Below are positions 12,371-60,750 of a stretch of DNA of 64,000 bases, one piece after another. The stretch lies in contig LGRX02027067.1 in the NCBI GenBank assembly GCA_001247695.2, positions 1 to 64,000 of the forward strand. The letters run 5' to 3'. Position numbers and translations under genes: made by a program. Source of the stretch: Cymbomonas tetramitiformis. Its lineage: Eukaryota; Chlorophyta; Pyramimonadophyceae; Pyramimonadales; Pyramimonadaceae. Below the pieces are notes generated by a model. That model made no database searches and was not told the origin of the DNA. It saw only the letters and a program-made list of their open reading frames with translations. Position 1 is the first letter of the stretch. Each line of letters starts with the position of its first letter.

Positions 12371-12657
12371 TGTTACGGATCGAAGATTAGAAGACGCCCG
12401 CAGTCGCGATGTTGGTACGTCATCGTCGATGTCACGATAAATCCTCGATCGGTAATCATCTGAGTTGTACGAGTACCACTAAAATGCGCGAAGATATCAT
12501 CAATAGCTTCGCGTAGCTCAGTGGTCAGAGCGTCGCACTAGAGAAGCGAACGTCGCGGGTTCAAATCCCGTCGTGGAGCATTTTCGCCCCATGACGATAT
12601 ATGATTTGACCCGGCTCGTACAGCGAAAATCCCCGCACCGATTTTCAGACCGTAACA
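12371..12657 (+). repeat. TRIM 5' LTR
   Basis: 287 bp, TGTTACGG...CCGTAACA with 8-bp inverted ends. It carries the tRNA-like gene at 12507-12579 and directly abuts the primer-binding site. Confidence 0.92.
12507..12579 (+). tRNA. tRNA-like gene inside the 5' LTR
   Basis: A full cloverleaf can be drawn. The acceptor stem is 7 bp (CTTCGCG with CGTGGAG, two wobbles). The D stem is GCTC/GAGC with a loop holding TGG. The anticodon stem is 5 bp with one A-A mismatch and the loop CTAGAGA. The variable loop is 5 nt and the T stem is GCGGG/CCCGT with loop TTCAAAT. A box TAGCTCAGTGG and B box GGTTCAAATCC fit RNA polymerase III promoters. The anticodon position reads AGA (serine), but the short variable arm does not fit a serine tRNA and the discriminator is C, so charging is doubtful. 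An extra G at 12506 could pair with C12579. The likeliest role is an internal Pol III promoter. Confidence 0.7.
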
Positions 12658-12675
12658 TTGGTATCGAAGCGACGG
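12658..12675 (+). promoter_or_regulatory. TRIM primer-binding site
   Basis: TTGGTATCGAAGCGACGG starts at the first base after the 5' LTR. TGGTATC.. is the usual complement of the 3' end of initiator-Met tRNA; the match becomes imperfect after about 8 bases, so the exact primer is uncertain. Confidence 0.65.
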
Positions 12676-12971
12676 TTCGGAAACCGCCTCGGATGTAACG
12701 GCATAAGGCACACGATGTGACCTGCGCTAAGATCGCGTATGCTCGGGCACGATGATGTGACCTGCGCTACGATCGCGTATGCATGGGCACGATGTGACCC
12801 GCGCCGATGACGTGGATTCGGGCCGCACCCCAAGAATTGCGATGCACCGCCTTCGGTGCGATGGGCTGCATCCCAAGAACTGCTATTCGGCTCATAGAGC
12901 TGCCACGTCATCACATCCGAGGTCGGACCTCTGAAAAGTAACTCGACACGAATGTCGTGAGGTCACGACAC

Positions 12972-12988
12972 TTTAAAGAGGGGAGATA
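12972..12988 (+). promoter_or_regulatory. TRIM polypurine tract
   Basis: A purine run AAAGAGGGGAGA ends 2 bases before the 3' LTR, the expected place for priming plus-strand DNA synthesis. Confidence 0.75.
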
Positions 12989-13275
12989 TGTTACGGATCG
13001 AAGATTAGAAGACGCCCGCAGTCGCGATGTTGGTACGTCATCGTCGATGTCACGATAAATCCTCGATCGGTAATCATCTGAGGTGTACGAGTACCACTAA
13101 AATACGCGAAGATATCATCAATAGCTTCGCGTAGCTCAGTGGTCAGAGCGTCGCACTAGAGAAGCGAACGTCGCGGGTTCAAATCCCGTCGTGGAGCATT
13201 TTCGCCCCATGACGATATATGATTTGACCCGGCTCGTACAGCGAAAATCCCCGCACCGATTTTCAGACCGTAACA
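12989..13275 (+). repeat. TRIM 3' LTR
   Basis: 287-bp copy of the 5' LTR with about two substitutions (near 13084 and 13103). It is followed by the GGTCA target duplication. Confidence 0.92.
13117..13190 (+). tRNA. tRNA-like gene inside the 3' LTR
   Basis: Same sequence as the copy at 12507-12579: A and B boxes intact and the same AGA anticodon loop. The copies have stayed identical, as expected when both LTRs are copied from one template at insertion. Confidence 0.68.
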
Positions 13276-27945: not shown

Positions 27946-28581
27946 GACCGTAGGGATACCGCCAATTCCCCACCGAGGAAGAAGTTGAGGAGCCAACTCG
28001 CGGATAAAGGATACCCGTGGGCGGAGAGCTTGACGCAGCAGCCGGCGGGTAAGGGCACGAGTAAGGGCGGTAAGGGCATGAGTAAGGGCGGCAAGGGCAT
28101 GAGCTTGGGTGGCGGTGGCCCTCAAACTTCATCAAAGGGTACTAGCCAAAAAAGGAGGAGATCATCTGCTGGCAGCGGAAGCATGCCGGCCTCGGGGCGT
28201 GCGTCAACGAGGGGCGCGGCGCCGGCATCGTCGGCCCGCACTGTGGCCCCCCCTCAACCGCTAGAGGAACCTCGGTCGGAGGTTACCGAGGCTGCCCAGC
28301 CGGTTAGGGGAATCACCGTGGAGGAGCTAACGGCGGTGTTATTGAGGCAGGAGGAGGCGAGTCAGAAAATGCTCAAGCGGCAGGAGGAGCACTTCACGCA
28401 GCGGCTGAAGCTGTCGGAGGAACGACAGCTGCGGGCCTTGGAGCGCCAAGTGGCTGACTTTATGGCAAGCCCAGGGGAAGATGCGGCCAGCGCGCCGACA
28501 GCGGAGGCACCACCTACCCTCCCCCCCCAGCAGCAAACCCCTCAGCAGCAACCAATGCCGCAACCTCAGGCGGTGCCGATG
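27946..28581 (+). pseudogene. Gln/Pro-rich protein gene, 5' part, split by MULE
   Basis: The open frame encodes a Lys/Gly repeat (KGTSKGGKGMSKGG), a helical Arg/Glu-rich coiled-coil-like segment (RQEEASQKMLKRQEEHF) and a Gln/Pro tail ending PQPQAVPM. At that point the Mutator-like element begins. The reading frame resumes in the same phase at 36749. The left side abuts the 5.3-kb TIR element, so this piece may once have continued the PHD gene at 20283-22657. That join is inference; the frames do not match without a shift. Confidence 0.6.
28573..28581. repeat. Left 9-bp target-site duplication of the MULE
   Basis: GTGCCGATG, repeated exactly at 36749-36757. Nine bases is the typical duplication length for Mutator-like elements. 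Confidence 0.92.
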
Positions 28582-28685
28582 GGTAGGCTATTTAATTTAG
28601 ATTATTTCTTCATGATTTTAGATTAACCCATTTTCATGTTGATTTTAGATTAAGTTTTTTTTATCTCATCCGGCTATTACCGGTG
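28582..28685 (+). repeat. MULE left terminal inverted repeat
   Basis: Begins GG and is AT-rich with GATTTTAGATTAA repeats. It ends in the block ATCCGGCTATTACCGGTG-like, shared with the right end. Inverted match to 36646-36748 at roughly 85%. Confidence 0.88.
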
Positions 28686-28752
28686 CATGCATCCATGCCA
28701 TCGAAATATTACACAAAACAGTTGTTGCGTAGCCAAACCAGAGGAAAGTAAC

Positions 28753-30773
28753 ATGGTTGAGCCCGACGGCTTTGAGTTCACAAGCCCGGGAAAAAATGTG
28801 GAGGATATATATCATTCGGATGAAGAGGATGAAGAGGAATTCCTCGTTAAACACATGGAAAAGTCGAAACGTATCCGTGTCCCCTTAGTGTGGAGTACCG
28901 TCCTCAATGGTGTATCGTATGTAGAGTGCACAGAGAAGATGGAAACCTTGAGCCTCGAGGGTGTGACCAAGTCTGGCAAGGATTATAGGTCGAAAAAAAA
29001 CGGTTCCGTGACTCAAAACTTCAGGTGTGCTTTACAGCATACACACGGTTGTCAAGTTTACTATAAAATTGTCAAGGGAACGACCTTATGCCCTACTATT
29101 CCATGCGACTTGTACACCCGTGGGACACACGACCATACTAATTTCAAAGGAAAGGGTATGTCGAAAGATTTAAAGGACAAGTGTAAGGATGCGATCAAGG
29201 AAAAGCTTCCGCCTAAAGCCATTTTTAAGAAGCTTAGTACCGCAGTCACCACAGCCATGGAAGCCGATGACGACGTTGAGTACAAGGTCATAAAGAACTT
29301 TGTGTACAACAATCGCAAACAAATCTTGGGGCTTAAAACCATAAAGACTTGCGGTCAGTTCATGGAGGTTTGCCAGACCTCCAACTTGTTGGCCATCCCC
29401 GTGACCGATCGCAAAACGGCGGGGACGCTTTGCATGTTTGAAGGACAAGTACTCCAACCGAGCGGCTTCGTAACCGTGGAACATTACGCCGAGAATTCCG
29501 CGAACACCCTGCCTCCTATTCCATCACGCATGTCCTAGAGCATTTGAGGTTACCTACGAACCTCTGTACACTTGTCGCGGAAGAGATTACGCAAGGGATA
29601 TGTTGGTCGCATTGCATGATGAAGCTTAACGAGAAGACCGCGCTATTCAACGACGCTCATAACGTTAACGGCTTCAAGCATGGCGTTACGGAAATACACA
29701 ACATCACCATCGTTGGTGCTCGTGATAGTGCATTCAAGCTCTTCATCGAACTATACAAGCGTGATGAAGAGTATATTTGCAACTGGTTCGTGGAGACTTG
29801 GTGGGGCAAGTGGGGTGGGTGGGTTCTCGGCTTCATGCCAGAAGGGATCCAATCTACGCAGAATAGTCCCGAGTGCGTGAATAGACACGTGAAAGACGAG
29901 ATGACCCTGCGTAAGCAACTCCAACTCGAGGTATTCCATCCTTCTGCGCTAAAATACATGCACGAGGAGACGATCTACGACGGGCAACACCCAATACCTA
30001 CGACTCCAGTTATTACACAAGCTATTTGGCGGGAGGCGCTACTTATGATTGACAACAACATGCTCGAGCTTATGACGCGCACGACCGGCGTCTTGGGGGT
30101 TACAGACAGTCCTTCCTATGTCGTTCCCTCCCTTAAGACCTTCGAGAAGTTGAGTGCTTCCACTATCGCGGATAAAAGGAAAGAGATTGCTCCCCTTGTG
30201 GTAAAGTTCCTCGCCCTTATGCGCGACCCTGAACACCCTCCAGCGACGGTTGTCACCTTCGAGCAGTTCATGGACACCTACAAGTCTTTTGTGATCTTAC
30301 GACCATTGGACGCTAATAACGTCACCGAATTTGGGCACCACTGGTGTATGTGCCCTATCTACGCGGAGAGCGTCACGTGTGCATGTAGTATTGCTGTTGG
30401 CTTATTCAAAGGGAAGTTTAAGGCGCCTCTTGAAAAACATCTCGACATAATTGGCCGACACCCACAAGTGGGACGCCCGAGAAAACCGGTTGGCGCCTTG
30501 AAAAGGCAACCCCTTGGGAAGATCACCGCGAAACTGAAACGGGAAGCATCCAAGCGAGCGCGCGAGGTGGTAGAGCTAGACATGGAAGCTAGATGCTCGC
30601 AGCAAGTTCCTAAAAGTTTATCGTGCGAACTGTGCGGTGAAGAAGACAACGGAGATGAAATGCTGTTATGCGACGTGTGCAATAAGGGCTTCCATATTTT
30701 TTGCTTGCGTCCAAGCCTAAGCAAGATCCCAGCAGGAACATGGTTGTGCGGACTATGCGTAGCTAAGGAATAG
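28753..30773 (+). CDS. MULE transposase with PHD finger, split by a frameshift
   Basis: The first frame runs 28753-29538. It holds an acidic N-terminus, then a FLYWCH/WRKY-GCM1-like zinc finger (FRCALQHTHGC..HDH at about residues 90-130) typical of MULE transposases. The second frame (about 29480-30773) holds the late part of the transposase domain: CWSHCMMKLNE (the C..H motif), WGKWGGWVLGF and NSPECVNRHVK with the presumed catalytic Glu. A SWIM-like CMCPIY..VTCACSIA follows, then a C-terminal C4HC3 PHD finger (CELCGEEDNGDEMLLCDVC to WLCGLC). The frames overlap near 29490-29540 and need a one-base shift. The early catalytic Asp region is not obvious, so an internal deletion is possible. The PHD finger may bind histone tails. 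Confidence 0.8.
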
Positions 30774-30886
30774 ACAATTTTCTTAAGGTGTACATACGTG
30801 TAATAGCAAGTATTAATATTTTGTGTACACACTATTCTCAAGTATTTTTTTGAATCAATCTAGCAACCTCTGTACTTTGCTTTACT

Positions 30887-31171
30887 TTATAAAAATTCCC
30901 ACTTGGCCCAGGAGGTGAAGTAAATATCCGTGGTAGCATGTGGTAGCCAAATGTTCTTGAAGCAACTTTTGCAAGTGAGCCGGTCAGGTTGTGGCAAGGG
31001 AATATCGGCTAGGTCCCTACCCACTACCGCCCACCTTGCAAGGAACCGCTCGTGGTCGGGGTACCCTTCAAAATTGTTGGCGAAAGATTGTTGCAGGTCT
31101 TGCAAGTCCCGGTTGAACCGAGCGCGGAGCCACGCTTTCCGTTCGCAGTGGTCGCAACATGGTTGGGGCAT
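30887..31171 (-). CDS. Small Cys-rich protein (MULE cargo)
   Basis: About 94 residues from the ATG at 31171; the frame is open to 31279. Two Cys pairs, CCDHC near the N-terminus and CKSC at about residue 70, could bind one zinc. The centre is helical and rich in Trp/Arg. It is convergent with the transposase gene, about 110 bp apart. I do not recognise a family. Confidence 0.5.
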   Translation of the reverse strand: MPQPCCDHCERKAWLRARFNRDLQDLQQSFANNFEGYPDHERFLARWAVVGRDLADIPLPQPDRLTCKSCFKNIWLPHATTDIYFTSWAKWEFL

Positions 31172-31368
31172 ACTTGTTTCGTACTTTAACAAAGTTTCCT
31201 TGGGTCGATAAGTGATGGTAAGATGCGAACACAAGGGAGTATGTATGCGAACAACGTGATATGTTATTATATAGTACACGCTATACGATATCTTATACCA
31301 TATACGTTATAGACGCTATTGTATTTGACTAAACCTATTTGACTAAGTCTTAGCCCGCAAATAAAAAA

Positions 31369-31869
31369 ATGAACAGAGTAATAAATAGGGACGAGGACTA
31401 TCAATCTTCCAGAGGCTACCTACCCGCCCCGTACAATTGCCTTTGGCAAAAGCACGTCGTGGTCCGCGGGCAAGACGAGAACCCTACGAAGGATCCCCAC
31501 TATGGACTCACTCGCCCCAACAAGCGGTGCGAGTTGCATAAGGTCCTCATATGCATGGTTGAGTATGGGGAGGCTGGCGTTTGGCCATTAGAGTTTCCTT
31601 TCGATTGTTTCCCAATGCTCGACCACTACGCTGTCGACAACCGCAAGCAGGGTGCGTGGGTGTGGTGCGAGGAGATCGCAACCACTCGCATTGTTTTCCA
31701 CGACCATGGAAACGACGACGATGGAAAATTCACCTCCCTTGTGTCGTACAAGTTGTGCAGCAAGTGCGCTAAAACTTGTCAGAGGATGGTGGTGCCTCTC
31801 GAGAGGCACGAGCGCAATGCAAGTTTGAATATTTCTGAACGTTTGAACGTCGAGTTCGAGCTTATATAG
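31369..31869 (+). CDS. Cys/His-containing protein (MULE cargo), unknown
   Basis: 166 residues from ATG 31369, with two Cys clusters: C..HK..IC in the middle and CSKCAKTC near the C-terminus. Acidic HDHGNDDDGK lies between them. The layout (Trp-rich body, then a C-x2-C pair) recalls the minus-strand protein at 35828-36568, and both may be zinc-binding accessory proteins of this element. No known family. Confidence 0.55.
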   Translation: MNRVINRDEDYQSSRGYLPAPYNCLWQKHVVVRGQDENPTKDPHYGLTRPNKRCELHKVLICMVEYGEAGVWPLEFPFDCFPMLDHYAVDNRKQGAWVWCEEIATTRIVFHDHGNDDDGKFTSLVSYKLCSKCAKTCQRMVVPLERHERNASLNISERLNVEFELI

Positions 31870-32045
31870 GATAGTAAATTAGCAAAGACTAGTAGCGATA
31901 ACGAGCAAGTACAACAAACAAATATTATTTGATTGCCAAAACAAGTAATGATATATATCAACTTGTAAATGTAAATGTTTTTTTCACGTGGCTAAGCATG
32001 GCATACACGTATTGTACCCCTATTTCACTAAGCCTAATCTAATAC
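31870..32045. other. AT-rich spacer between convergent genes
   Basis: Short AT-rich spacer separating the Cys/His protein and the dioxygenase gene, which converge here. It probably contains both 3' ends; no clear poly(A) signal can be assigned. Confidence 0.5.
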
Positions 32046-33286
32046 TTATCTCCTACCACGCTTCCGCGCACCCTCCGCTTCACGCCTTCGCTTGTTCGTG
32101 ACTTTGTCCAAGCACTTCATAACGTCTGCCCCCAAAGTATTGAGCACTTTCACGTTGGCATCGTCCACCGTGGGGGCGAGGTCCGTGCCCGCGAGGAAGT
32201 ACTTGACGTACTCCTTGGCAGCGAAGTCGAGAAAACCCCAGTGGATGGGCGAGTTGACTGGGTTAAGCTGCACATCCGGGTCGTATGAGGCCACGTCCTT
32301 CAAGGCCAAGTTGGCGGAGAACACTATTCGGGGCGTGCCATCCGCATTGGACACCCCTTGGTGAACCCCCCCCACAACGGCGCACTCGCCCAACTCCACT
32401 TTCTCCTTCCCCCCAACGTTCACCGCGAAGGCGTCGAGGGTTTCTTTCGGGAGCATTAGAGCGCGCTGCTCACGGAAAGCTGTATCGCAGTTCAGCCTCA
32501 AGTTCTCTTGCGTCGATTGGCCTAATAGGTCAATCGACGCTTCCAACGACGGGGTTGGCGCAGAGCACACCCTTGTTGGGGAACATGGGCCCAAGTAGGC
32601 GACGATCGCCAAGTGCTGGGCGGGCGCGGTGAGGGGCTGGTTCAACGGCTGGTCAAGATGCCAAGGTTGCCACCCCCTTAGGGACGAGAGGACCTTCCCC
32701 GAATTCTCTGCAACCAGGTCGTCGTTGATTAAAAACGCTTTGTTCTCGACGGTGTACGAGTTACGTAGCTTTTCTAATACTTGCGTCTCCACCTCGTTGA
32801 CGAAGACGTTCAAGTGCTTCCGATCTTCGTCGTCGAGGAAGTTGTCGTAGAAGTCCGTCAATATTCCCCCCCCCCGTGTTTCGCGGTTTCATGAAACACC
32901 TCTAGCTTTCCTCCGGTAAGGGTTACGATTCCGCTAGGAAGTTTGTCCCAATCCGGCACCTTGTGCAAGGCTTCCCGCCACATAAGCGAATAGCGCCTTT
33001 CCAGATGTTGTCGCGACTCTTCGGGTAAAGACACCACGAAGTTGTTTGCGAAGCCTATTGCTCGCGTACGATCGAAGTCGTCCAAATATTTTTCTTTGCC
33101 TCTTGCGGGTTTCTTTGACTGTCCGCTGCATTTTGCGCATCGCAGCTCGCCCTTGCCTCTTTTTATCCGGGTGCAGCGTTTGCCCTCGTGGTCCATAGTC
33201 GACGGGTCTTGCTTGCATTCAATGAGCTTTCCCTTCTTGTTTAACTGTCCGCATTCGCAGATCTCGGCAAGTGTTGATTGTTCCAT
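32046..33286 (-). CDS. Zinc-finger + 2-oxoglutarate/Fe(II) dioxygenase-like protein
   Basis: Two minus-strand frames abut: 33286-32858 (from ATG) and 32861-32046 (no ATG). They are separated only by a run of ten C at 32866-32875, and a one-base difference there would join them into about 413 residues. The N-terminal part has a Cys cluster (CECG..C..C..CAKC). The C-terminal part has the facial-triad pattern of a double-stranded beta-helix dioxygenase. In 32861-frame numbering this is H68-x-D70 in WQPWHLDQ, H167 in GGVHQGVSN and R178 in TPRIVFSANL, which would bind 2-oxoglutarate. It should be an Fe(II)-dependent oxidase, substrate unknown; DNA, RNA or histone are plausible in this setting. It is divergent from the methyltransferase gene across the palindromes. 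Confidence 0.6.
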
Positions 33287-33363
33287 AGTCGTTACGATTT
33301 ACGTTCGGGTTATAATAAATTTCAACTTTCACTAAAGGAAATAAAAGCGCCACTAACTTGCAT

Positions 33364-33727
33364 ATTCACGGCCGTGAATTCCAGATTCACGGCCGTGAAT
33401 TCCATATTCCGAATGGAACCAAAAACCGTTCGATTTTAATCGAACGGTTTTTGGTTACATTCGGAAAGATTCACGGCCGTGAATGACAGGGATATATGAC
33501 CGACCTGTTTTCATCTCATGCCCTTCACACGGGTGCTGTGTCACGCGACGGGGAGTTCGGGACGACGGCGATAAACGGTGCATGCGCCCGCCTTACCCCT
33601 TCCAGATTCATGGCCGTGAATTCCATATGTCCGAATGGAACCAAAAACCGTTAGATTTTAATCGAACGGTTTTTGGTTCCATTCGGAAAGATTCACGGCC
33701 GTGAATCTAAAATTCACGGCCGTGAAT
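33364..33727. repeat. Duplicated ~100-bp palindrome between divergent genes
   Basis: Two near-identical blocks (33385-33484 and 33606-33706) are each an almost perfect palindrome. ATTCACGGCCGTGAAT marks both edges, and the middle is a 54-nt inverted repeat around CCGTTCGATTTTAATCGAACGG. Extra ATTCACGGCCGTGAAT copies flank the pair (33364-33379 and 33712-33727). The array lies between the start codons of the minus-strand dioxygenase (33286) and the plus-strand methyltransferase (33827), where a bidirectional promoter or operator would sit. Confidence 0.92.
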
Positions 33728-33826
33728 AACTGGGATACCGTTTCTGGCGCGACTCGGAAAGTTGCAAGGGGGAAGTATTTTGAGAAACAAGTTGCCGATT
33801 TACGACCGATTGTGACTAACTAAAAG

Positions 33827-35149
33827 ATGCCTCGTGATAAGTGCGGTGTATGCTGTCCGAAAGCACCTAGCAAGCAAGATTTACGGCGAGTAGTGGCAAT
33901 GATATTGGGACCGTATGCAAAGCTCGAAGAGATACGCCCAATTTACTGGCCTGCGCAATTCGAGTCCATAGGCGGAAGAAATGGGTATTCGCAATATAAA
34001 GTTGGAGAGCTCTTGATTTTGTTGAAATCATATTTCGTACATATCTTAGGGAGTGAGAATGCAATTAAAGAAGGTCAACTTGCTTTATTTTTTTCCGCGT
34101 TAGCTTCAATCCGGCCTACGAACAGCGGGCTCGAAGTGTGCTGTGATAGGCATAATACAATGGTAGCTTACGACGCATGGGTGGACGAAATCTTTTTTTC
34201 AAACCAGTCGCCAACACTCTCCGATGTATGCCAACCTACTGAACCCATAGGGCAAAACAATGTGAACGCGGAGATTGCGACATGCGACGAGATTGAACCG
34301 TATGAAACAACGGAGCGCGTTGTGGACAACAATGCGAACGACAATGCAAACGACGACAACGCGAGGAAGTTGTTTCCGAAACGAAAACGGAGTGCGTTGT
34401 CAACGAGGTGTGCTCCTATGAAAAATTTACCATTTAAAATAACGATACCAAGGGTATGTGATAAAGGCACTAGTTTTTATCCCACAATCGCACAACAATA
34501 CACGCCTCTATTAGCAGTTATTGGCAGTTTGTTTCACGGAAAAAAAATTGGGGATTTTTGCTGTGGTAAGGGACCTCGCTACGTTTACAACAACCTAGTT
34601 CGGTTCAAACCGAAGACGATCTTTCTGAGCGATAAGCATCCTGCGCAAGGCATAAGACGCCTAGACTTAGAGAAAATCAAGTGGGAAGAATTCAACCCGC
34701 AAGTAGACATCATAATATCGTCCTTGCCATATGCAAGAGGGAAGTGCGAACCTTTGTTAGCTGCGTGTCTTCAATCCAACGCCTCGATCGTGTGTTTGAA
34801 GCTATTGCATTCGTTCGAACGTCCTGTGGTTGGGGATAGTAGAGCTAGTGCGTTCCAAAGACTTGGCTTAAAGATTTTGCTACCGCCTGCAAAGTATCCG
34901 GGGTTCGACCGTAGTTTAGGAGAAGTTGAAGCCTGGTATATTTTTTTCAACTCAGCGACAACAAAAGTTTTACTAAAGAAAAGTGTTAGTGAGTTTCACA
35001 AATTGCTGTACAAAGACAGAGGATACCCGGAAAGTGCTGGGAGCGTACCTTTTATTTATGATGGCGTAGAGCACAACGTTGCATCTTTCAAGGATCGAGG
35101 ACTTATTTTGTGGGATTCGCGGAAACAGGCGGCCGGTGCTCATAAGTGA
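33827..35149 (+). CDS. DNA methyltransferase-like protein (MULE cargo)
   Basis: 440 residues. A Cys-containing N-terminus (CGVCC) is followed by a helical region and a low-complexity Asn/Asp linker (about residues 165-182). Then comes a Rossmann-type half: IGDFCCGKGP at 241-250 (motif I, SAM binding), FLSDKHPA at 266-273, and DIIISSLPYA at 294-303. The last is at the place of the catalytic [DNS]PPY motif but reads SLPY. The order I before IV fits adenine-type methyltransferases. The altered catalytic motif means activity is uncertain. The stop lies inside the region where the next frame already looks coding, so the two may be one fused protein. Confidence 0.55.
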   Translation: MPRDKCGVCCPKAPSKQDLRRVVAMILGPYAKLEEIRPIYWPAQFESIGGRNGYSQYKVGELLILLKSYFVHILGSENAIKEGQLALFFSALASIRPTNSGLEVCCDRHNTMVAYDAWVDEIFFSNQSPTLSDVCQPTEPIGQNNVNAEIATCDEIEPYETTERVVDNNANDNANDDNARKLFPKRKRSALSTRCAPMKNLPFKITIPRVCDKGTSFYPTIAQQYTPLLAVIGSLFHGKKIGDFCCGKGPRYVYNNLVRFKPKTIFLSDKHPAQGIRRLDLEKIKWEEFNPQVDIIISSLPYARGKCEPLLAACLQSNASIVCLKLLHSFERPVVGDSRASAFQRLGLKILLPPAKYPGFDRSLGEVEAWYIFFNSATTKVLLKKSVSEFHKLLYKDRGYPESAGSVPFIYDGVEHNVASFKDRGLILWDSRKQAAGAHK

Positions 35150-35294
35150 TAACCAAAGGCTAAAGGTGCTACTCACGGAATTTGAAGCAACGTTGCATGC
35201 ACAAACGTGCAAGATAATAGAGCGTGGCTGCGCAAACGAGGCAAAAGGCAAGAAAGGAGGGAAGGAGGGATGGAATGTTGGGTGGTGGTTTAAC

Positions 35295-35831
35295 ATGGGG
35301 AGAACAGTGCAGCAAGAGGGGTTTGCCCCTAAGCTAGATGGCACATGTGCTTTCGGGACGCCCCACCCTTGGCACAAGAAAAAAGGAGTTTACATGGACG
35401 ATCCGCTAACAAGTGCAAGCAAGCCGTATTGGAAGAAAGAGCTTTACATCCTAGCAGGTCAAATCTTAGAAATAATAGACGCGGATTACAAGCGAGACGG
35501 CGATTGGTGCTTGTATGTGTCGTGCATGCTAGCCGGGAAGTGCGAAGTGAAGCGACACGAGGACAGAAAAGATGTGTCACATCAATACATAATTTTTCTT
35601 GGAAACTACAAGAACGCGGTTCTGGAGATGGAGTCGCCTAGAGAGGATAGCAAGGGCACCCTTCTCCAATTCTCTGAAAGCCATAAGGTTTTAAAGTGCG
35701 ATGCGCGGTGCAAACATAGAGTAGCTTCTGAAGGTTTTGAGGGAGTGCGCTATTGCGTTACTTTATACAAAATGTATGATAGGCGTCTAAGCAAACCAGC
35801 CCCGGTGTATTGGCCACCACATTATATTTAA
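35295..35831 (+). CDS. Second 2OG/Fe(II) dioxygenase-like protein (TET/JBP-like?)
   Basis: From the first ATG (35295) it is 178 residues, but coding character extends upstream in the same frame to about 35125, overlapping the end of the methyltransferase frame. The dioxygenase pattern is clear: H88-x-D90 in VKRHEDRKDVSHQY, then IIFLGNYKNAVLEM, LLQFSESHKV, H141 in CKHRV and R152 in GVRYCVTLY. The sequence type resembles small viral and TET/JBP-like dioxygenases that oxidise methylated bases. That substrate is inference from its neighbour and from known transposon-borne TET/JBP genes in other eukaryotes. It converges on the Cys-rich gene at 35828. Confidence 0.65.
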   Translation: MGRTVQQEGFAPKLDGTCAFGTPHPWHKKKGVYMDDPLTSASKPYWKKELYILAGQILEIIDADYKRDGDWCLYVSCMLAGKCEVKRHEDRKDVSHQYIIFLGNYKNAVLEMESPREDSKGTLLQFSESHKVLKCDARCKHRVASEGFEGVRYCVTLYKMYDRRLSKPAPVYWPPHYI

Positions 35832-36568
35832 CGTACAACAGTGCAAGGTAAGAACTCCTCTGCGAAATCAGGAGAGTCAACCATAACGTATTTGCATAGA
35901 CTCACCCCCGTAGGTGATGAAGCACACCATTCGTGCCTTAAATCGTACCCCCTATTGTGCACAGTTAGTTCTGAAGCACAACTTGCACAAAGTTTGCCAA
36001 TAGTGTTTCCACATTGCCTAATTGTAAGCATAGCGCCCGCTGAGCAATGGTGGACGCTACGGTGCTCCCTAGTAGCTAATAGTGATAACCAATACAAGAA
36101 TCGAGCCATGTATGACATGTTTCTTTCCCGGTTGTATAACACCGATAAGAAAGTTTGCAAAATATCGTCGAGTTGCCACCCTGCAACATGGTTAGTGTAG
36201 TGAAACAAGGGAAACGACCCAGAGAACAAGTGTCGCTGGCACGGTGAATATCCCCAGTTCCCACGTGAAGGTACAACCCCTCCCCAAGGCATACCCTCCG
36301 TGTATTCGAGATACACATAGCGGTTACGAAAGTCCCATATAGGGTTACCGTCACTATCGTCACTCTCCCATAGGTTCACAGTGTCTGTATACTTTAGCCG
36401 GAAGCCAGTTTGGACATACGCGTCGAATACAGTGCCTTTGAAAGCTGTGGGTTGATAGTGGGGGGCCTTATTTTCAAGCAGAACACGCCGGGAGTGTCTA
36501 TTACAACGGCGCCCACCATTATCACAAGTGAGACAAACCTTCTTGAAGCTTTTTGGAGGCTTCCTCAT
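35828..36568 (-). CDS. Cys-rich protein (MULE cargo), unknown
   Basis: 246 residues from ATG 36568, ending four bases inside the stop of the convergent dioxygenase gene. An N-terminal CLTCDNGGRRCNRH cluster and a later CGNTIGKLCASC could each bind zinc. The middle is rich in aromatic residues (WGGVV, YVYLEYTEG). No family recognised. Its start lies 80 bp inside the right terminal repeat. Confidence 0.6.
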   Translation of the reverse strand: MRKPPKSFKKVCLTCDNGGRRCNRHSRRVLLENKAPHYQPTAFKGTVFDAYVQTGFRLKYTDTVNLWESDDSDGNPIWDFRNRYVYLEYTEGMPWGGVVPSRGNWGYSPCQRHLFSGSFPLFHYTNHVAGWQLDDILQTFLSVLYNRERNMSYMARFLYWLSLLATREHRSVHHCSAGAMLTIRQCGNTIGKLCASCASELTVHNRGYDLRHEWCASSPTGVSLCKYVMVDSPDFAEEFLPCTVVR

Positions 36569-36645
36569 GATGGCAAGCGGGAACTACAGCGTTTGACCTG
36601 TGTGCACATTATTTGAACACTTTGAACACGAGTCGTGAAAAGGAC

Positions 36646-36748
36646 CACCGGTAATAGCCGGATGACATAAAGAAAACTTAATCTAAATTCACAAGAAATT
36701 GAGTTAATCTAAAATCACAAAGAAATAATCTAATTTAATTATTTTTCC
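36646..36748 (-). repeat. MULE right terminal inverted repeat
   Basis: Inverted counterpart of 28582-28685. It ends in CC directly before the GTGCCGATG duplication at 36749-36757. Confidence 0.88.
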
Positions 36749-37130
36749 GTGCCGATGCTCCAAATAGGACAGGAAGCGTATCAAGCGCCTCAGTTGCCTC
36801 AAACCTCCCAGCCTCCGTTGTTGCAGCAAACCTTCCAGCCTATGCAACCGCAGCAACCCCAGCCCTTCTTGCTCCAACAACCCCAGCGGTTACGGCGGCA
36901 GAGCGGCTCCGGCATTGCAGGCGGCTCAGCTCCAGCAGACCCGGCCCGGCGCAACACCTTCTCGCAAGCTCCCGCACTTTGCATGCAGTGCCCCCATGCT
37001 CCTTCGGCAACCACAGGCCCGACAGCTCCAGCAACTCCAGCAGCTCCAGCAGCTCCAGCAACTCCAGCAACTGCAGCCCACGCCATTGAATACCATGACC
37101 TCTGACTTGGGTACAACACTTGCGCTGCAA
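36749..37130 (+). pseudogene. Gln/Pro-rich protein gene, 3' part, split by MULE
   Basis: Begins with the second copy of the GTGCCGATG duplication and continues the frame of 27946-28581. The residues across the excised junction would read ..AVPM followed by LQIGQEAYQAPQ. The sequence is Gln/Pro-rich (QPMQPQQPQPF), then changes frame between about 36880 and 36920 to a QLQQLQQLQQ tract with a (CAGCTC)n-like repeat at 37030-37075, ending at 37133. Probably a disordered regulatory or structural protein, now split by 8.2 kb. Confidence 0.6.
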
Positions 37131-37133
37131 TGA

Positions 37134-38116
37134 CTGTCAGCTTGAGCAGTGGCGCCTTTCGACACATTACAACGTGCGCAACATGGAACGTGGAAGAAGA
37201 GACCATGGGTTCGCCAGTTGGCGCTTCGTTCGTCGCACCCGGTCTCTTTTAGTTTTTGAATTGATGGCGCGCGATGGAGAATACCCCGACCGTGCTGGTA
37301 ACCAGTGGATTACCCCGCGGACCATGATTGTGCCTGCAGACATTCCTGGCGGGACTCCAGGCTCTCATTGGACGCTTTTTTATATGCTCGAGTGTCCCCG
37401 CCGCTGGACTCAGCCGACCTGTAACTGTTGTAGGCCGTTCGGTAACTCTGAACGTTTTGAGCAACTCGCTACCGCATGCAGTTGTGAGACGTCCGGTCTC
37501 ATTTAGTTTTTAAATTGGTGGAGCGCGATGAAGACTACCCGGACCGTGCTGGTGACCTTTATATATATAGTTTGTAGATAAACTTTACATTCAACCACTA
37601 GTCTTTCGTATATTACAAGTTGTCGTTATTGAGAACTGGTATACTTGATGTGCTTATTTTCTTGCCGTAGAAAAGTGTGTAAGTGTTTATTCTTGCCGTG
37701 TTCATGACGAGTGTGTGGACATCTCGAATCTTGCCATTAAACAAACCTTTATAACACCCTGATTCAACTTACACCCTAAATGTGCTAAAGGAAATATTTC
37801 CGTCATCGTTTATAAATAAACTTTTCGCTCTTAGCATCACATGAAATATAAAGCTTCAAATCAATATTCAAAACAAAGTTACCGGCGCGCATGTTTTGCC
37901 TCCAGAGTTTAACACGACTTCACCTTTTCTAGTGCCCTTCGCCCCATCGCCTACTCGTCTTCGTGCATTGACCAACTACGTTCTCCATTGGTTTTTCACG
38001 TGCTTTCGCGGACCACTACTAACCACAAGTCCGGGTGGCCGGCCCCCCAGTTAGGTTCAAAACATACTTCTTTCCCCGCCAAGATCCCTAACTAACTTTC
38101 ACTAACTTTCGATGTT
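37134..38116. other. No supported gene; imperfect direct repeat
   Basis: Two imperfect copies of a roughly 80-bp sequence (about 37226-37305 and 37486-37560) share TTTAGTTTTTGAATTG-like and GACCGTGCTGGT blocks. An open frame at 37120-37506 runs over the first copy and has no recognisable domain. 37560-38116 is AT-rich and appears non-coding. Confidence 0.55.
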
Positions 38117-41100
38117 CTACTTCACGTTTGTCACTTTCATCTTCCGGTACGGCTCACCCAATCCAAGATCCCCCACATGGCGCTTCGCGCAGCAAAACAC
38201 CGCGTGAGATAAATAGTGCACCGCGCTCATGAAGTTTGCACGCTTCATCTCCACGCCGATGAAGGCGCGTCCCATGCGAAGCGCTCCAATCCCAGTGGTT
38301 CCTGCGACACACGTAATATCATTCAATACCCCGGCGTGTCCCTCGCGGCAAAACCAATGCATCCACAATGACACGCACCACTTCCCATGAACGGGTCCAA
38401 CACCACCATGTCGATGTCGGTTGTGTACCGCTCCACCAACAGCTCCATGAGCTCCACCTTTTTCTGTCCCACCACCAAGGTCTTGCCATGCTCTTCGCAG
38501 GGCTTACCGCCCTTCAAGCATCCCACTACGGCGCAATCATGCTTGAAGGTATCCTGCACTTGAACGGCTTGGAAAGGTCGTGCCTGATGTTCTACCTCGG
38601 TCTCAACGATGTCCATCCTCTGCTCCTCATCCAATTGCCTGAAGCTGACTTCCCAGCTCGCAGCCAGGTGGCTTTCCAAGGCCTTCTCAAAAGCCTTCAC
38701 CTCTTGGTAACTTAGGGCACGCAAAATGTTTCCAGTCCAACAATTCACCGGGTAATAATCAAAGCAAAGGTCCTTACATTGCTGCCCCCTGGTTTGGATG
38801 CCGGTCTTAAAGTCCAACTTCGGAGCCTCCAGCTTCCGTGCAAAAGTCGTGTACTGGTGTCCCAAGGACTTTGGCGTGTTCGTGAAAGTCGCGTTGTTGC
38901 GGTTCCCCTCCGTCACGATGTACCCCGGCATTGTCTTGTACACCTGTGATCCTTCCCCCCTTTTCCCTCCCTTTCAGAAACGTACCAAAAAAGCAAAAAT
39001 AAAAGGGTGCCTTCAAAGCAACAAGTGTTACATTGATCATACCGGATGCTTCAACGCCTTCCAGCCCGCCTCCAAAGCTCGAAGGGCTTCACTGTCGCCT
39101 AAGGCACACACAATGGTGTCTCCGTCCACCTTCCCCAGATCGGCGTATTTATGAACCTCCGACATGCCATCGTTGTTCGCGCACAGCTCGTCCACCTTCA
39201 CCGCGAAAGCATCCCAATCCACCTTCGTGTTGTACCCGGTCTTGCTCTCATGGCCCCACGGAACATCCGTGATGACCGCCGCCACACAAAACTTATCTTC
39301 CGCCGCGTTGTGCGTGATGACGTCCATGGCCCCGAGAGCTTCGCCGAAGTACAGCTGCAACAGCGGGATGCCTTGGGAGTTCATGGCAACCGATGTCAAC
39401 ACCAACAACTTCTCAGCCTCGTCGTGTCCGTGTTGATGGATTAACTCCAAGATGTACTCCACCTTCTCATCCTTCACCTTCGTGCCCCGCGTCGTCTTCA
39501 TGTTCTTCACCGCTATTACCTTCGGCACCTCCACGGACACAATATTGTGCACATGATGCCGTACACCAGGCTTCAACGCCTCCTCATTCATCTTCAAGAA
39601 CTGCCCAATTTCAATGCTCTCCTTCACCGGTGCCTTCTGCCGCGTTCCATTTCGGAGCGTTCCGCCTGCCATCTTCCATTGTCGCAACCCTTCGTAGTCC
39701 GGGTTCCCTCGCGACACCCCAACCCAAGGCTTCATCCATTCCGGGCAGGGGGCCGGGCCGTCCTCCATGTCATGCTCATCCTTCTGTTTCTGTTCATCCA
39801 ACTCACGCCGCTCCTTGTCGCAAATCCAAGCCGCGTAAGCGGCATCCTCCTCCTCAAAGGCCTGCAACTCTTGACGTAGCTTCCCCATGTCCGCCCTCTT
39901 CTTAATTAGATCCTTTTTCTGCTTCTTTCCTCTTGGGACATGTCGCCCCGCATCCTCCGCCGCAAACCAATCCGCCACTTCCTGTCTCTTCCGCTTCCGA
40001 TCTTCACGTGTTTCACGAACCTCCTCCGACTCCTTTTCAAAGTCAAACTTTGCATCCTCCTCCTCATCGTCCTCCTCTTCCTCATCCTTCTCCTGACCAT
40101 CTTCCTCACCATCCGGTTCCTCACCATCTTCCTCACCCTTGTCTACCTCCTCATCCCCATCGCCTTCCCCGTCATCAACATCCCCATCCGACGCACCTTC
40201 CTCCTTCTCTTCCTTTTTCTCTTCAACATCCCCACCCGTGTCACCAGCAGCAACTTCCGCAAGGGTCCTGACGCCACTCTCCTGAGCCTCCGCAGCAGTC
40301 TCCTCCCACTCAACCAGCTCGTTAGTTGTGCTTCTTCAGCAAGTCCTGCACGACTTTCGGCTCGACATCCCGGTTCAGGCGAGCCAAGTTACTGGTCTTG
40401 GAGCAAGTCTCGTTGGCGTCGAAGAAAGTACCATCGTACCTGTAAACAAAAGTTTAACACCCATCACCTTTCCGCATAAAAAAATAGTTCACGGCTTTAA
40501 CCAAACCGTGGTAGGTGGACTTACTTTCCGGCGCTCAAGTCCTCCAAGAACTTGGACGCCTCTTCAGTTTTTTTCGCCTTCCCCTTAGAGCTTTGAAGCT
40601 CTAGCTGTGAGCGGACTTCTTGACGAAGCAGCACAAACGAACACAAGTCCGTGAACGCGCGTGTGGTTCCGACGAAGCCCAAAGTCGCGCATTGCTTCTT
40701 CTTCTTCAAGTGGAGCTCGCCATTCTCGTCCTTCACGGAGAACTTGACGTTCTCGTTCACCTTCAGGAAAACCTGAGACATGTGTTTGTCTTTAGGCGTG
40801 ATGGTTGCATATAACATAATAAAATAAAGACCGGCTTCGGCCGTACCTGATATCTTTGTGTCGGATTAAGACGCTGGAATTCCTTGTTGTCGAACAAGGA
40901 GTTGAAGCCGTAGGGGGAATCCTTCCCCAAAGCTTCGCAGTTCTCGCGAAGCAAGCCCTCCAGCCGCTCGTCGGGCCCGATCACCTTTTCGTGGATGTGG
41001 GCCATCCTCTTGAAGAACATCAACGAGTATAAAGAAGGGTCGATGTGAGAGAACAAAACAACCAGCTTCAGTGGTTTGGCCACGGCCTTGTCAATGGAGG

Positions 41101-48636: not shown

Positions 48637-48899
48637 TACTGGAATATCCAAGTTCACAGATAATAGTGTGTGCTGTGAAACTGATATAGATAAACTCTTA
48701 TAATAAATAAACCCTAAGCTAGATATACCCCGAACGGTGACAGAGTCGGAACGGCTACGGTCCTAGCTACCTGTGACACCTTGGTGTGTCACAGTACGGG
48801 CTTACGGTCAGTCACAGGTCCAGTGTTGGCTACCTAGTAATCTGTCATAGGGGCCTGCACCGGGACTCCCGGTCAGGGCTGCCTACACAGATTTCAGCA
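48637..48899 (-). repeat. LTR (5' LTR of the minus-strand element)
   Basis: 263-bp copy, followed on the plus strand by the ATGTA duplication that contains the primase start codon. Confidence 0.92.
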
Positions 48900-49463
48900 A
48901 TGTATATAAGAAAGATGTCCCACCAAAGTGTTGTCACTATGTATGATGATACTCGTCCCCTTCAAGATATGATCAAGATCAAATTGAATCCCAATTCTAA
49001 ATCACCAACGAGCGATAGCATAGGTTTCTATAAAGATACAAGCAAGCAATATAAAGGCATAGAACCAAACAAAAAATATAATGTTGGCATCCTTGGTGGT
49101 AAAGTCAACGATATGATTGTGGTAGATTTGGATACCAATAAGTGGGATATGGATAATCATCCATGGACTCTTGCTTTTGGAAAAGATCCAAGGGTGTTCA
49201 ATACCTATACCGCTCAATCTTGTAGAGGAGGATTTCACTTGTATTTTAAATATGACAAGGATTTTGCCCGTTCAAGGAGTGCCCATGAAATTGACATCAT
49301 CTCAAATAGAAGATACATTGTAGCACCACATTCACACATATATGATATAGATAAAGGAATCATTCACAAGGATTACACCGTTTACCATGATACATCCATC
49401 AAGGAAATGCCCGAGACGGTGAAGCAATTCTTGTTGGAACACATTTACACATCCACTTCTTAA
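48900..49463 (+). CDS. Viral primase-polymerase (AEP, PrimPol) domain
   Basis: 187 residues from ATG 48900 (MYIRKMS; a second Met follows at once). The archaeo-eukaryotic primase pattern is present: NVGILGG, then VVDLD at about 74-78 (metal-binding DxD), SCRGGFHLYF at about 107-116 (the sGGxH motif) and EIDIISNRRYIVAPHS. It would prime viral DNA synthesis. An in-frame TAA at 49461-49463 ends it; the same frame then stays open for a further 763 codons of helicase. The start codon lies in the 5-bp duplication made by the LTR element, so the natural promoter is now 3.5 kb away. Confidence 0.8.
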   Translation: MYIRKMSHQSVVTMYDDTRPLQDMIKIKLNPNSKSPTSDSIGFYKDTSKQYKGIEPNKKYNVGILGGKVNDMIVVDLDTNKWDMDNHPWTLAFGKDPRVFNTYTAQSCRGGFHLYFKYDKDFARSRSAHEIDIISNRRYIVAPHSHIYDIDKGIIHKDYTVYHDTSIKEMPETVKQFLLEHIYTSTS

Positions 49464-51752
49464 AAAAATGAAAAAACCGGAAAGTTTGAGATCAAGCCTC
49501 AAGAGGAATACACTCAAGAAGGAGAGGTGTATTATGACTTAAGCGATAAAGACATTGATAACATATTGAGCATGCTACCTCATAACATCATTGATACATA
49601 CCAAGATTTTCGGCTCTTTACCAATGCCATGAAGGGATTGAATCAAAATACAAAATGGGATGAATTTTCAAAGACCAAACCAAAGTATGATCATGATAAC
49701 AACATCAAGATATGGAATGCATGCAAACCCAATGAGTTCGATTCAATCACGTGGCTACTTTCCAAAGCAAAGAGGAAGATAGCCGTCAATCATCATAAAA
49801 TGAAAAGACTTCCAAGGAACAAGATCAAACCTCATAAGGCCATAAGACGTCCCAAATTACAAGAGAATCAAGGATCGGACATTTTAGCACGCGATACATC
49901 ATACATCATCAAGTCGGGTTGTGGGACCGGCAAGACGACAACTTTCATGGATCACGTCAAAGCCAATCTTCAAAAGCGAAATGGAATGAAGATCATTAGC
50001 ATTGTATCAAGAGTAGTTTTAGCGGAAAAGCATTATGATGACTTTAATCAAGCCGGAATTAGTTGCAAAATCTACAAGGATAAGGATGTGTCATTGAAGC
50101 AAGGAGACAACATCGTCATTACCATAGATAGCTTGTCAAATTTACTTCTTTTAAAATTTGATTTTAAAGACTACACAATTTTCATGGATGAGTGGAATTC
50201 AATATATGATCATTTAATCGGAACTGAAACATTGAATACCGTTAGAGCAAGTCTTTACTATTATCTAAAACATGATGTGCTCAACAAATGTAAAAATTAC
50301 ATAGCGGTTGATCAAGATATATGTGACGATTCTATTGAGTTCTTAAACAAAGTGAATAAGGAATACACATTTATCTACAACAAGCACAAACATTTTTCGG
50401 GCGTTCCGATCTATGAGATTGAAAAGGAGGAAGACTTTAAAAAGTTGATATTAAAACACGAGAAATACTTGGTACCAATGGACTCCGCCAGCTTGGCCAA
50501 AGAATTGTATGCTTATCTAAAACCACACCATCCCGATTTAGAATTAGTCACAAAAGAAACCGACAAGATACCTAATTTTAACACTACCAATAGGATCATC
50601 TATAGTCCCAAAGTAGTCTATGGAATAGATAGCAACACCGATATGAAACGACCTGTGTTTGCACTATACAAAGAACATACCATCAACCCATTAGGCATGG
50701 CCCAACAAGTAATGAGAGAAAGAAACCCGACATGTGTATATGTCTTCTTTTATAAACAACAATACGAAGCAAACCCGAGTACATTAGATGATGTAAGGAA
50801 ACAATTACAAGATACAAAAAAAATGGGGATTCAATATTTCAATGTGTCGGCATATCCCAAGGATATGACCGATGAATATTTAGAATGTCTTGCAAGGTTT
50901 GAGTATAAGAAGCTTTGTTACGAGACTAATAAACGAGCTCACTTCATTAACATAATGAGAAATCAGGGGTTCGTATTTGAGAACCAATATCTTAAAGCAC
51001 AAAGGTTGAGGAAACCAATAGAAGATGAAACCGAGGTTCCACAAGAATTTGACCCTATGTCATGTGAGGTTTACCAAAGAATTCATGAGATGTTGGTAGT
51101 GCCCAAGGATGACCTACAAACCTTTAGGAAATACTACGAAGCTGACCACTTATTGAAGAAGCACTTCAATGTCGCTCGCTACTTTTACATATATGACCAA
51201 GTACAAATGAAAGAAAAGGTAGAGAATGGAGATGACTTTCTTGTGAATCTAGTACGATCTGATCAAGCAAAGGTGTGGTGGTTACAAAGGTTTCAAGAAA
51301 TGGTTGGGAACTTAGATAAGAATGCCATTGATTCAAAAAAGACTTTGACACAAGAGGAGAGTGACACATGCAATGAAGAGTATTTCAACATGTTTCCGAC
51401 AAAGAAAGCAAAGGGGTACGATCTGACTCAAAAGAAAGATATTGATGCATTGCTGGGCAAGATCTATCACCACTTGTTCGGAGATGGATTTACTATAGGT
51501 AAGCAAGTGAGATACAAAGACAAGCGAGGATACACCTATGAGGTTGTACCGGAGATTTTGGAGGAACACAAAACGTTGTTGGGATTTAGAAAACCTCAGC
51601 TCTTCAAGAACTTTGGATTGTTCAATGGAGAATACCAATTTATTGACGAGGATGAATCGGAGGAGGAAATTAAATCAAGGAGAAGGGTTGAGCTTTGGGA
51701 TAATTTGGTGAGTGTAGCATTTTGGAAAAAGCTAAAGCCATTAGTATTGTAG
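49464..51752 (+). CDS. Viral SF2 helicase (origin-binding-protein-like)
   Basis: Same frame as the primase, directly after its TAA; no ATG occurs until MLPHNII at about 49572. Walker A is SGCGTGKTTT (about 49912-49941) and Walker B is FMDEWNS (about 50181), followed by helicase core blocks such as IVSRVVLA. The layout PrimPol plus this helicase type matches replication proteins of algal viruses and Polinton-like viruses, usually one polypeptide. I read the two frames as one gene broken by a nonsense codon, or a case of readthrough. The C-terminal 200 residues are charged and unassigned. Confidence 0.75.
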   Translation, partial: KNEKTGKFEIKPQEEYTQEGEVYYDLSDKDIDNILSMLPHNIIDTYQDFRLFTNAMKGLNQNTKWDEFSKTKPKYDHDNNIKIWNACKPNEFDSITWLLSKAKRKIAVNHHKMKRLPRNKIKPHKAIRRPKLQENQGSDILARDTSYIIKSGCGTGKTTTFMDHVKANLQKRNGMKIISIVSRVVLAEKHYDDFNQAGISCKIYKDKDVSLKQGDNIVITIDSLSNLLLLKFDFKDYTIFMDEWNSIYDHLIGTETLNTVRASLYYYLKHDVLNKCKNYIAVDQDICDDSIEFLNKVNKEYTFIYNKHKHFSGVPIYEIEKEEDFKKLILKHEKYLVPMDSASLAKELYAYLKPHHPDLELVTKETDKIPNFNTTNRIIYSPKVVYGIDSNTDMKRPVFALYKEHTINPLGMAQQVMRERNPTCVYVFFYKQQYEANPSTLDDVRKQLQDTKKMGIQYFNVSAYPKDMTDEYLECLARFEYKKLCYETNKRAHFINIMRNQGFVFENQYLKAQRLRKPIEDETEVPQEFDPMSCEVYQRIHEMLVVPKDDLQTFRKYYEADHLLKKHFNVARYFYIYDQVQMKEKVENGDDFLVNLVRSDQAKVWWLQRFQEMVGNLDKNAIDSKKTLTQEESDTCNEEYFNMFPTKKAKGYDLTQKKDIDALLGKIYHHLFGDGFTIGKQVRYKDKRGYTYEVVPEILEEHKTLLGFRKPQLFKNFGLFNGEYQFIDEDESEEEIKSRRRVELWDNLVSVAFWKKLKPLVL

Positions 51753-51759
51753 ACTTGTC

Positions 51760-51912
51760 ATAAAGTGAAACTTAATATTACTATATACATCATTCTCTAA
51801 AAGTGACAAATCAAAAGCAACAATCTTCGATTGTTGCCGATCTAATGGTATTGTAAACTTGTCATAAAGTGAAAGTTAATATTACTATATACATCATTCT
51901 CTAAAAGTGACA
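51760..51912 (-). terminator. Two inverted copies of the viral hairpin
   Basis: Two copies, at about 51762-51813 and 51856-51911, read GTCATAAAGTGAAA, then TTAATATTACTATATACATCA, then AAAGTGAC. They are the reverse complement of the units at 44728-45077. They lie between the convergent helicase and C5-methyltransferase genes, where transcription of both would end. Confidence 0.6.
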
Positions 51913-52529
51913 AGAGTTATGATCAACTCGCGTGGTATGCTATACACATTCTCAACCTTCCCTCTCCCGATCCCATGGGATGCACATGAACTTTGACCAA
52001 ACTGAGCCGATTTCATATGCTTTCCATATAACTTCATCATAGGGCACGGTGTGCTGTGTTTGAAACACATCTTCAAATCTAACCCTTCCCGATTAGTCCA
52101 AATATTGCTAGCCTTCCGATATTCAAATCCATATCGACAATAGCAGCATGTGTGGATGTATTTATTCATGTGTTGCATCACAGGTCTATGTCTCATTAAG
52201 CCACCATCTGCTGGGTTCTCAATGAACCAATATGTAGGTTTCAAGTAGTCAATGATTTGCAATGTTCTCTCAACTATGGTATCAGCCAATTCCAGGTTTC
52301 GTGGTTGATATCTTTTGGCCTTGCTATATTCCGTGCATGGTGGACTTGCCCAGATCATATCAAAGTGCTTTGATGGATACACGGTATAATCCCAGCTTAG
52401 TATGTCCACGACATGAGTTGGATCATGATCGGGCAGTATGTCCACCGATACAATTTCGCAATTTTTATAGATTTCCTTAAGTACTTTGCTGACCGATGCC
52501 GTCCCGGAGAATAGCTCTAAAATAAACAT
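51894..52529 (-). CDS. DNA (cytosine-5) methyltransferase
   Basis: 211 residues. Motif I LELFSGTASVSK at 4-15 binds SAM. SVDILPDHDP at 28-37 is motif II. ASPPCTEYSKAK at 61-72 is motif IV with the catalytic Cys65. FIENPADGG at about 105 is an ENP-type motif VI. It is shorter than bacterial enzymes (over 300 residues) and has little room for a target-recognition domain, like small phage-type enzymes. It probably protects or marks viral DNA. Its 3' end overlaps one hairpin of the terminator region. Confidence 0.85.
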   Translation of the reverse strand: MFILELFSGTASVSKVLKEIYKNCEIVSVDILPDHDPTHVVDILSWDYTVYPSKHFDMIWASPPCTEYSKAKRYQPRNLELADTIVERTLQIIDYLKPTYWFIENPADGGLMRHRPVMQHMNKYIHTCCYCRYGFEYRKASNIWTNREGLDLKMCFKHSTPCPMMKLYGKHMKSAQFGQSSCASHGIGRGKVENVYSIPRELIITLVTFRE

Positions 52530-52690
52530 TGTTCAGAAGTTGAATTACATTATAGTATAATAAAATCTTGGTTTAGAACAAAGCATGTCGCGGTTAAAGC
52601 GGACACCGTGTGAAGCTTACAAAAAATGTTAAGAAGGGTGCCGAGATCTTCGTTCCGTATGGAAAAGATTATTGGAATAGATAGTATCTG

Positions 52691-53741: not shown

Positions 53742-53744
53742 ATA

Positions 53745-54221: not shown

Positions 54222-54289
54222 TAAGTAATTATAAGATACCCTAAGAAAATAAATTTCTTGATCTGACCCACTACAATCAAAAAAACGTT

Positions 54290-54352: not shown

Positions 54353-54372
54353 TATATTAGTATAGTATATAC

Positions 54373-54825: not shown

Positions 54826-54842
54826 TTTATATAGTATAGGAG

Positions 54843-58790: not shown

Positions 58791-58798
58791 TATATAGT

Positions 58799-60112: not shown

Positions 60113-60118
60113 TATATA

Positions 60119-60745: not shown

Positions 60746-60750
60746 TAGTA

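Follow-up and report, generated by a model that had tools for sequence, protein, structure and literature searches.

A transposase-defective Mutator-like element with a putative methyltransferase and dioxygenase gene pair in the green alga Cymbomonas tetramitiformis

Could a DNA transposon place chemical marks of its own on DNA, beyond removing those of its host? The question is raised by an element at positions 28582-36748 of a 64,000-nucleotide stretch (hereafter the window) of contig LGRX02027067.1 (assembly GCA_001247695.2) from Cymbomonas tetramitiformis, a green alga of the Pyramimonadales, whose cargo includes a methyltransferase-like open reading frame (ORF) overlapped by a dioxygenase-like one. 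The explanation that we favour, at a probability of about 0.5 for the whole, is that the element belongs to a family of Mutator-like DNA transposons in this alga or a very close one, that this copy inserted recently and has a defective transposase, and that it carries a DNA-modifying methyltransferase-dioxygenase pair.

The segment is a transposable element. Both flanks bear a perfect 9-bp target-site duplication (TSD), GTGCCGATG (28573-28581 and 36749-36757), and excision of the element together with one TSD copy leaves a single open frame through a glutamine/proline-rich stretch, indicating that the insertion is real and that its target was coding-like sequence. Terminal inverted repeats (TIRs) align between 28589-28685 and 36646-36741 at 88.7% identity over 97 columns, and the outermost 7 bp of the two element ends agree clearly at the first GG only; the repeats and the duplication reported by the first-pass annotation are thus both present, but its TIR length of 104 bp includes 7 bp that do not align. 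A blastn search of the window at E up to 0.01 found no further TIR copies, and IMG/VR contains no exact match to a 19-bp string from the inner TIR.

The transposase is distributed over two ORFs, the second of which ends in a PHD finger (PF00628, E 3.2e-12 in the Pfam scan), and was compared with two relatives, P0009 (CYMTET_47465 of C. tetramitiformis, 730 residues) and P0010 (831 residues, with a SWIM-type name in UniRef). The N-terminal part is 83% identical to CYMTET_47465 over 259 residues and the product of 29520-30245 is 98.8% identical to the same protein over 242 residues, so the copies appear mosaic. The window protein aligns to residues 1-259 and then 458-699 of P0009, and to residues 1-258 and then 457-818 of P0010, and the 198 residues that it lacks relative to both contain two candidate catalytic aspartates. 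The motifs DDTYKT, LDHS, CWSHC and PECVNR start at residues 376, 442, 485 and 574 of P0009; we take the first two to be the sites of the first two catalytic aspartates, the D-D-CxxH-E layout of the family having been assigned by eye. Given the deletion of both candidate aspartates and the accompanying frame shift, the transposase of the window copy is, judging by its sequence, very probably dead, and mobility would need a transposase supplied in trans by an intact relative. Because neither the window ORFs nor P0009 and P0010 match a Pfam MULE-type domain at E up to 1, assignment to the Mutator-like elements (MULEs) rests on the TSD, the TIRs, the PHD finger and the D-D-CxxH-E layout: the duplication lies within the 8-11 bp (typically 9) of the superfamily, the TIRs are long as in its members, and the PHD finger is a feature of Rehavkus-type MULEs. 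We regard membership as highly probable. The MULE transposase with a PHD finger described earlier therefore keeps its finger, but at about 29520-29523 it is interrupted by an internal deletion with a shift of frame, and it matches no Pfam MULE domain.

The larger cargo protein, encoded at 33827-35149, probably adopts a class-I S-adenosylmethionine (SAM) methyltransferase fold, a reading of moderate support. In alignment A3, which leaves out P0006 (a gene model that misses the stretch of core motifs), SSLPY is unchanged in all six rows, and in the motif I-like DFCCGKG substitutions are confined to the second and final positions (DVCCGKS, DFCCGKA); alignment A5 comprises four sequences, those of the window, P0001, P0002 and P0004. 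When the predicted structure was searched with Foldseek, 48 of the 50 rows listed were class-I SAM methyltransferases, none of them at E <= 0.001 and with a mean predicted local distance difference test score (pLDDT) of 42.7 for the model. The Rossmann methyltransferase with motif I and SLPY that had been proposed from the letters alone thereby gains conserved motifs and consistent structural neighbours, but on a model of low confidence and without a match at that threshold.

The overlapping ORF (35070-35831) plausibly encodes a protein with an Fe(II)/2-oxoglutarate (2OG) dioxygenase fold. Its HxD..H triad and downstream arginine are unchanged in four of four sequences, and three 1-aminocyclopropane-1-carboxylate (ACC) oxidase entries head a 39-chain structural comparison of its model (mean pLDDT 38.7). 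Read previously as a dioxygenase from position 35125, the frame retains that assignment through its conserved ligands and the leading ACC oxidases, but the bare motif is weak and the first in-frame ATG does not occur before 35295. An alternative of lower probability is that the "dioxygenases" of this element are not Fe(II)/2OG enzymes and that their H..D..H..R residues coincide by chance. The loose pattern HxD..H..R is indeed common, occurring in 16 of the 69 window ORFs of at least 150 residues (both candidates among them) and in 1190 of 5000 shuffles of one candidate protein and 601 of the other, and was rejected on these counts as proof of a dioxygenase. Furthermore, of the 182 residues 72-253 of the 35070 ORF, 94 do not vary at all, and against this background the constancy of four ligands is by itself not striking; no TET/JBP family profile of Pfam matched any of the four family members at E up to 10, and Foldseek of the model against the PDB gave no match. 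Coincidence is in turn opposed by the first places of the ACC oxidases and by the tighter pattern HxD..Hx[VIL]..R[YFW] which, although picked post hoc, appears in only 37 of 20000 shuffles of this ORF and in 3 of the 69 window ORFs, itself included.

For a second candidate dioxygenase (32046-33286) the argument against coincidence consists of just another post hoc pattern, present in 96 of 20000 shuffles and in 4 of the 69 window ORFs (both candidates included), and the tighter TET-like pattern does not fit. Its protein is split at a 10-base C run (32866-32875), which is either a true frameshift or an assembly error, and the second piece holds HLD, H and R at residues 77/79, 176 and 187. Neither Pfam, PHROGs nor PDB sequence searches, nor NCBIfam for the second piece, gave a credible match, homologues not having been sought in a large protein database, and a scan of IMG/VR with the second piece yielded no relatives. 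From its sequence, a dioxygenase fold here is a tentative proposal at slightly less than even odds. Of the two HxD..H..R dioxygenases that the first-pass annotation counted, both show the pattern; one survives at moderate strength, but the other is not established beyond its motif.

The methyltransferase-like and dioxygenase-like ORFs overlap in different frames, and the pair recurs in a named gene model and probably on one further contig. P0001 and P0007 are 91% and 94% identical to the two window proteins, each comes from a 3504-bp contig, and presumably the two share one. In addition, the gene model CYMTET_30269 unites the dioxygenase-like protein with a part of the methyltransferase-like one. 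A candidate GT-AG intron in the window would create the same junction; as proof of a fusion it was rejected, 152 of the 830 GT-AG pairs of the region giving open joins. In the structural model, this intron would also cut into residues 370-375, apparently the final strand of the core of the methyltransferase. Because of the many open joins and the severed strand, the two frames may instead give separate products or be connected by a frameshift, perhaps of +1 at the methyltransferase stop.

These observations are consistent with a cargo built around two conserved partners, a SAM methyltransferase-like protein of the amino type and, overlapping it, one that resembles Fe(II)/2OG dioxygenases; most probably the two would chemically modify DNA or an associated nucleic acid to the benefit of the element. 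A base amino group would first be methylated, the new methyl mark or a methyl mark of the host would then be oxidised, and the altered marks would make the element look different to the silencing machinery or the DNA-binding proteins of the host. DNA as the substrate, catalysis and an anti-silencing purpose are what we infer from these assignments, and the adjacency of the two genes fits methylation followed by oxidation as well as writing opposed by erasure. DNA modification in the service of the element is put forward tentatively, at somewhat below even odds. A less probable view is that the pair acts on RNA, protein or small molecules and that its genes are passengers of a Pack-MULE-like capture with no role in the element, in keeping with the structural matches of the methyltransferase model, which span DNA, rRNA, tRNA, protein and small-molecule methyltransferases with no clear preference, and with the capture of host gene fragments described for MULEs in passages of PMC6446971. 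Unlike random captured fragments, however, the two genes form a single model in CYMTET_30269 and probably lie together on the 3504-bp contig, and distant relatives keep the methyltransferase core and not the linker. Finally, a composite origin, in which the cargo block would be an independent mobile or viral fragment inside the Mutator-like element, draws on the divergent arrangement of the cargo genes around a 366-bp foldback that itself resembles a nested element with TA edges, and on cargo matches none of which come from contigs of the size of P0009's (180,702 bp) or P0010's (152,407 bp), but is improbable given that one TIR pair encloses all cargo ORFs and that a repeat search of 28000-37500 revealed no additional set of long terminal repeats enclosing the block as a whole.

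Several results weigh against a Mutator-like element with a DNA-modifying pair, beginning with the missing Pfam MULE match. The canonical motif IV of amino-methyltransferases is [DNS]PP[YFW], and in the window protein, where DFCCGKG is followed by SSLPY, leucine takes the place of its first proline. Both structural models are of low confidence, neither with a Foldseek match at E <= 0.001, and against BFVD the methyltransferase model gives a mixed set of matches. Searches of Pfam, PHROGs and NCBIfam with the cargo proteins returned weak, unrelated rows only, the strongest being PBP_sp32 (E 0.0063, in two of seven members), and PDB sequence searches nothing credible; the structure and profile searches by which the first-pass annotation had proposed to check the cargo folds have thus provided methyltransferase-like Foldseek rows, but together with low pLDDT and no credible profile match. 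Alignment by hhalign of the methyltransferase and dioxygenase families did not place the methyltransferases KsgA, Dam, RsmJ and RlmJ or the dioxygenase AlkB above decoys (KsgA ranked 12th; the other four are not among the 12 listed). This comparison, made against 56 E. coli proteins from annotated coding sequences, with short, cut and some other coding sequences omitted and RlmJ partial, is uninformative as family evidence. Lastly, CpG ratios give no clear cytosine-methylation footprint over the element: observed/expected CpG is 1.09 for the whole element and 1.06 for the window, with lower values towards the right end (0.85 at 35150-35831 and 0.80 at 35832-36568, where TpG and CpA stand at 1.15-1.19). 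No relatives were found in IMG/VR or GTDB genomes.

Transposons with single epigenetic effectors are known, at least from the portions of the literature consulted here: fungal DNA transposons with TET/JBP genes, retrotransposons with DNMT genes, and MULEs with VANC or SET. In its table of MULEs, Dupeyron et al. (2019, PMC6446971) list 9-bp TSDs and a PHD finger for the outgroup Rehavkus, together with a C-terminal minisatellite, and in other passages give mudrB, mutB and vanB/vanC as extra ORFs of MULEs and SET in those of Phytophthora. By those passages the present element shares with MULEs and Rehavkus the 9-bp TSD, long TIRs, PHD finger and additional ORFs, and differs in its prasinophyte green algal host and in the absence of a Pfam MULE profile match; neither "methyltransferase" nor "dioxygenase" appears anywhere in the text of PMC6446971. 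VANDAL and Hiun MULEs with VANC (PMC6446971, PMC12730594) likewise combine a MULE with anti-silencing cargo, whereas VANC is described in the excerpts as a sequence-specific anti-silencing regulator and no enzymes of the present kinds are named there. TET/JBP genes occur in many lineages of fungal DNA transposons (Kojima 2025, PMC12730594, whose abstract names no MuDR), and these transposons, as summarised there, resemble the present element in being DNA transposons with an Fe(II)/2OG dioxygenase, one proposed to counteract silencing by methylation; here, by contrast, the host is not a fungus, no TET/JBP profile matches and a methyltransferase-like gene adjoins. Retrotransposons carrying DNMT in dinoflagellates and charophytes, DIRS elements carrying Dam, and DNA transposons encoding DNMT in marine viruses are reported in parts of de Mendoza et al. 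(2018, PMC5890265). The DNMT and Dam retrotransposons are, on those parts, similar in being transposable elements with a DNA methyltransferase, but are of a different class and of cytosine-5 or Dam type, and TET has 0 occurrences in PMC5890265. A Mutator-like element with methyltransferase and dioxygenase cargo was not among the openly licensed literature matches listed, in agreement, as far as those matches extend, with the earlier statement that no MULE with a methylase and dioxygenases was known.

If our reading is correct, a DNA transposon that both methylates and oxidises would make it testable whether transposons install DNA marks of their own, beyond removing the host's, and a divergent candidate pair of DNA-modifying enzymes, missed by the profile libraries tried, would be present in a green alga with abundant endogenous viruses. 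According to the available part of PMC12730594, it is common for phages to carry a C5-methyltransferase along with a TET/JBP dioxygenase and glycosyltransferases, all working in concert, and this set serves as the model for a bolder and rather improbable version, in which a green-algal Mutator-like family would possess self-contained base hypermodification, with a private mark unread by host silencing. An amino-methyltransferase and a dioxygenase, both produced from a single locus and perhaps as an alternatively spliced fusion (34936-35128), would in this version first methylate and later oxidise bases of the transposon's DNA. Such a family would, by analogy and with equally little likelihood, parallel in a eukaryotic transposon the phage pathways of methylation followed by oxidation.

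Table 1. Features of the element and its borders, in window coordinates.
Feature	Coordinates	Strand	Remarks
Left TSD copy, GTGCCGATG	28573-28581	.	
Left TIR	28582-28685	+	Aligned part 28589-28685
Transposase ORF1, N-terminal part	28753-29538	+	C..C..HxH zinc-knuckle-like stretch by eye; 83% to CYMTET_47465 residues 1-259
Transposase ORF2	29442-30773	+	CWSHC, candidate catalytic E (PECVNR), C-terminal PHD finger at about 30624-30758
Internal deletion junction with frame change	29520-29523	+	About 198 codons missing relative to CYMTET_47465; candidate catalytic D 376/377 and D 443 (P0009) gone
139-residue ORF, stop to stop	30887-31306	-	Two CxxC pairs; length within chance
171-residue ORF, stop to stop	31354-31869	+	Cysteine-containing; length within chance
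Candidate second dioxygenase-like gene	32046-33286	-	Two frames, 32858-33298 and 32046-32888; motif only
366-bp foldback	33363-33728	.	Six TTCACGGCCGTGAA-type palindromes and two long hairpins; between divergent cargo genes; z -17.9
Methyltransferase-like protein, 440 residues	33827-35149	+	Motif I-like DFCCGKG, acidic LSD, motif IV-like SSLPY
Candidate GT-AG intron fusing the methyltransferase-like and dioxygenase-like frames	34936-35128	+	Junction as in CYMTET_30269; product 603 residues
Dioxygenase-like ORF, stop to stop	35070-35831	+	H163xD165, H216, R227
Cysteine-containing ORF, no family assigned	35828-36568	-	251 residues stop to stop (35828-36583); ORF this long in 1 of 200 shuffles
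Right TIR	36646-36748	-	Aligned part 36646-36741
Right TSD copy	36749-36757	.	

Among the remaining features of the element (Table 1), the two short ORFs at 30887-31306 and 31354-31869 were rejected as genes, the longest ORF reaching at least 139 residues in 141 of 200 shuffles and at least 171 residues in 54. Comparison of the element's own proteins with one another revealed no homology (best E 0.71 by blastp, and 0.18 by phmmer among the matches listed). Five of the TTCACGGCCGTGAA palindromes of the foldback are exact and one has a single mismatch, none occurring in 100 shuffles; its two hairpins are of about 60 nt, a TA stands at each edge, and the whole may represent either a miniature element nested here or a region that controls the genes on both sides.

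The surroundings hold further methylase-like and virus-like sequences. The C. tetramitiformis long-read assembly is described, in the portion of PMC10675990 consulted, as 914 Mb with 68% interspersed repeats and many endogenous viral elements. Close to the right end of the transposon, 38323-40335 (minus strand) forms a third methylase-like stretch of the window, with a weak N6/N4 DNA methylase match at 38323-38973 (PF01555, E 2.3e-4, under the curated cut-off; VLDPFMGSG) and a neighbouring ORF that has a DVPW motif and no Pfam match. Five ORFs scanned with Pfam at 48777-63258 include a Prim-Pol, a helicase with PriCT-2 and a viral family-B DNA polymerase, suggesting a Polinton-like or related viral element, and a C5 cytosine methylase-like gene lies within it at 51894-52532 (PF00145, E 9.7e-6). 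Elsewhere, 3377-5044 encodes a DUF7869 protein (E 2.1e-47), the two tRNA matches of Rfam in the window are tRNA-Ser(AGA) genes at 12506-13198 whose starts are 618 bp apart, and an ORF at 1702-2300 is built from the repeated unit NRSLANERPLAKARLTHRHFGCG.

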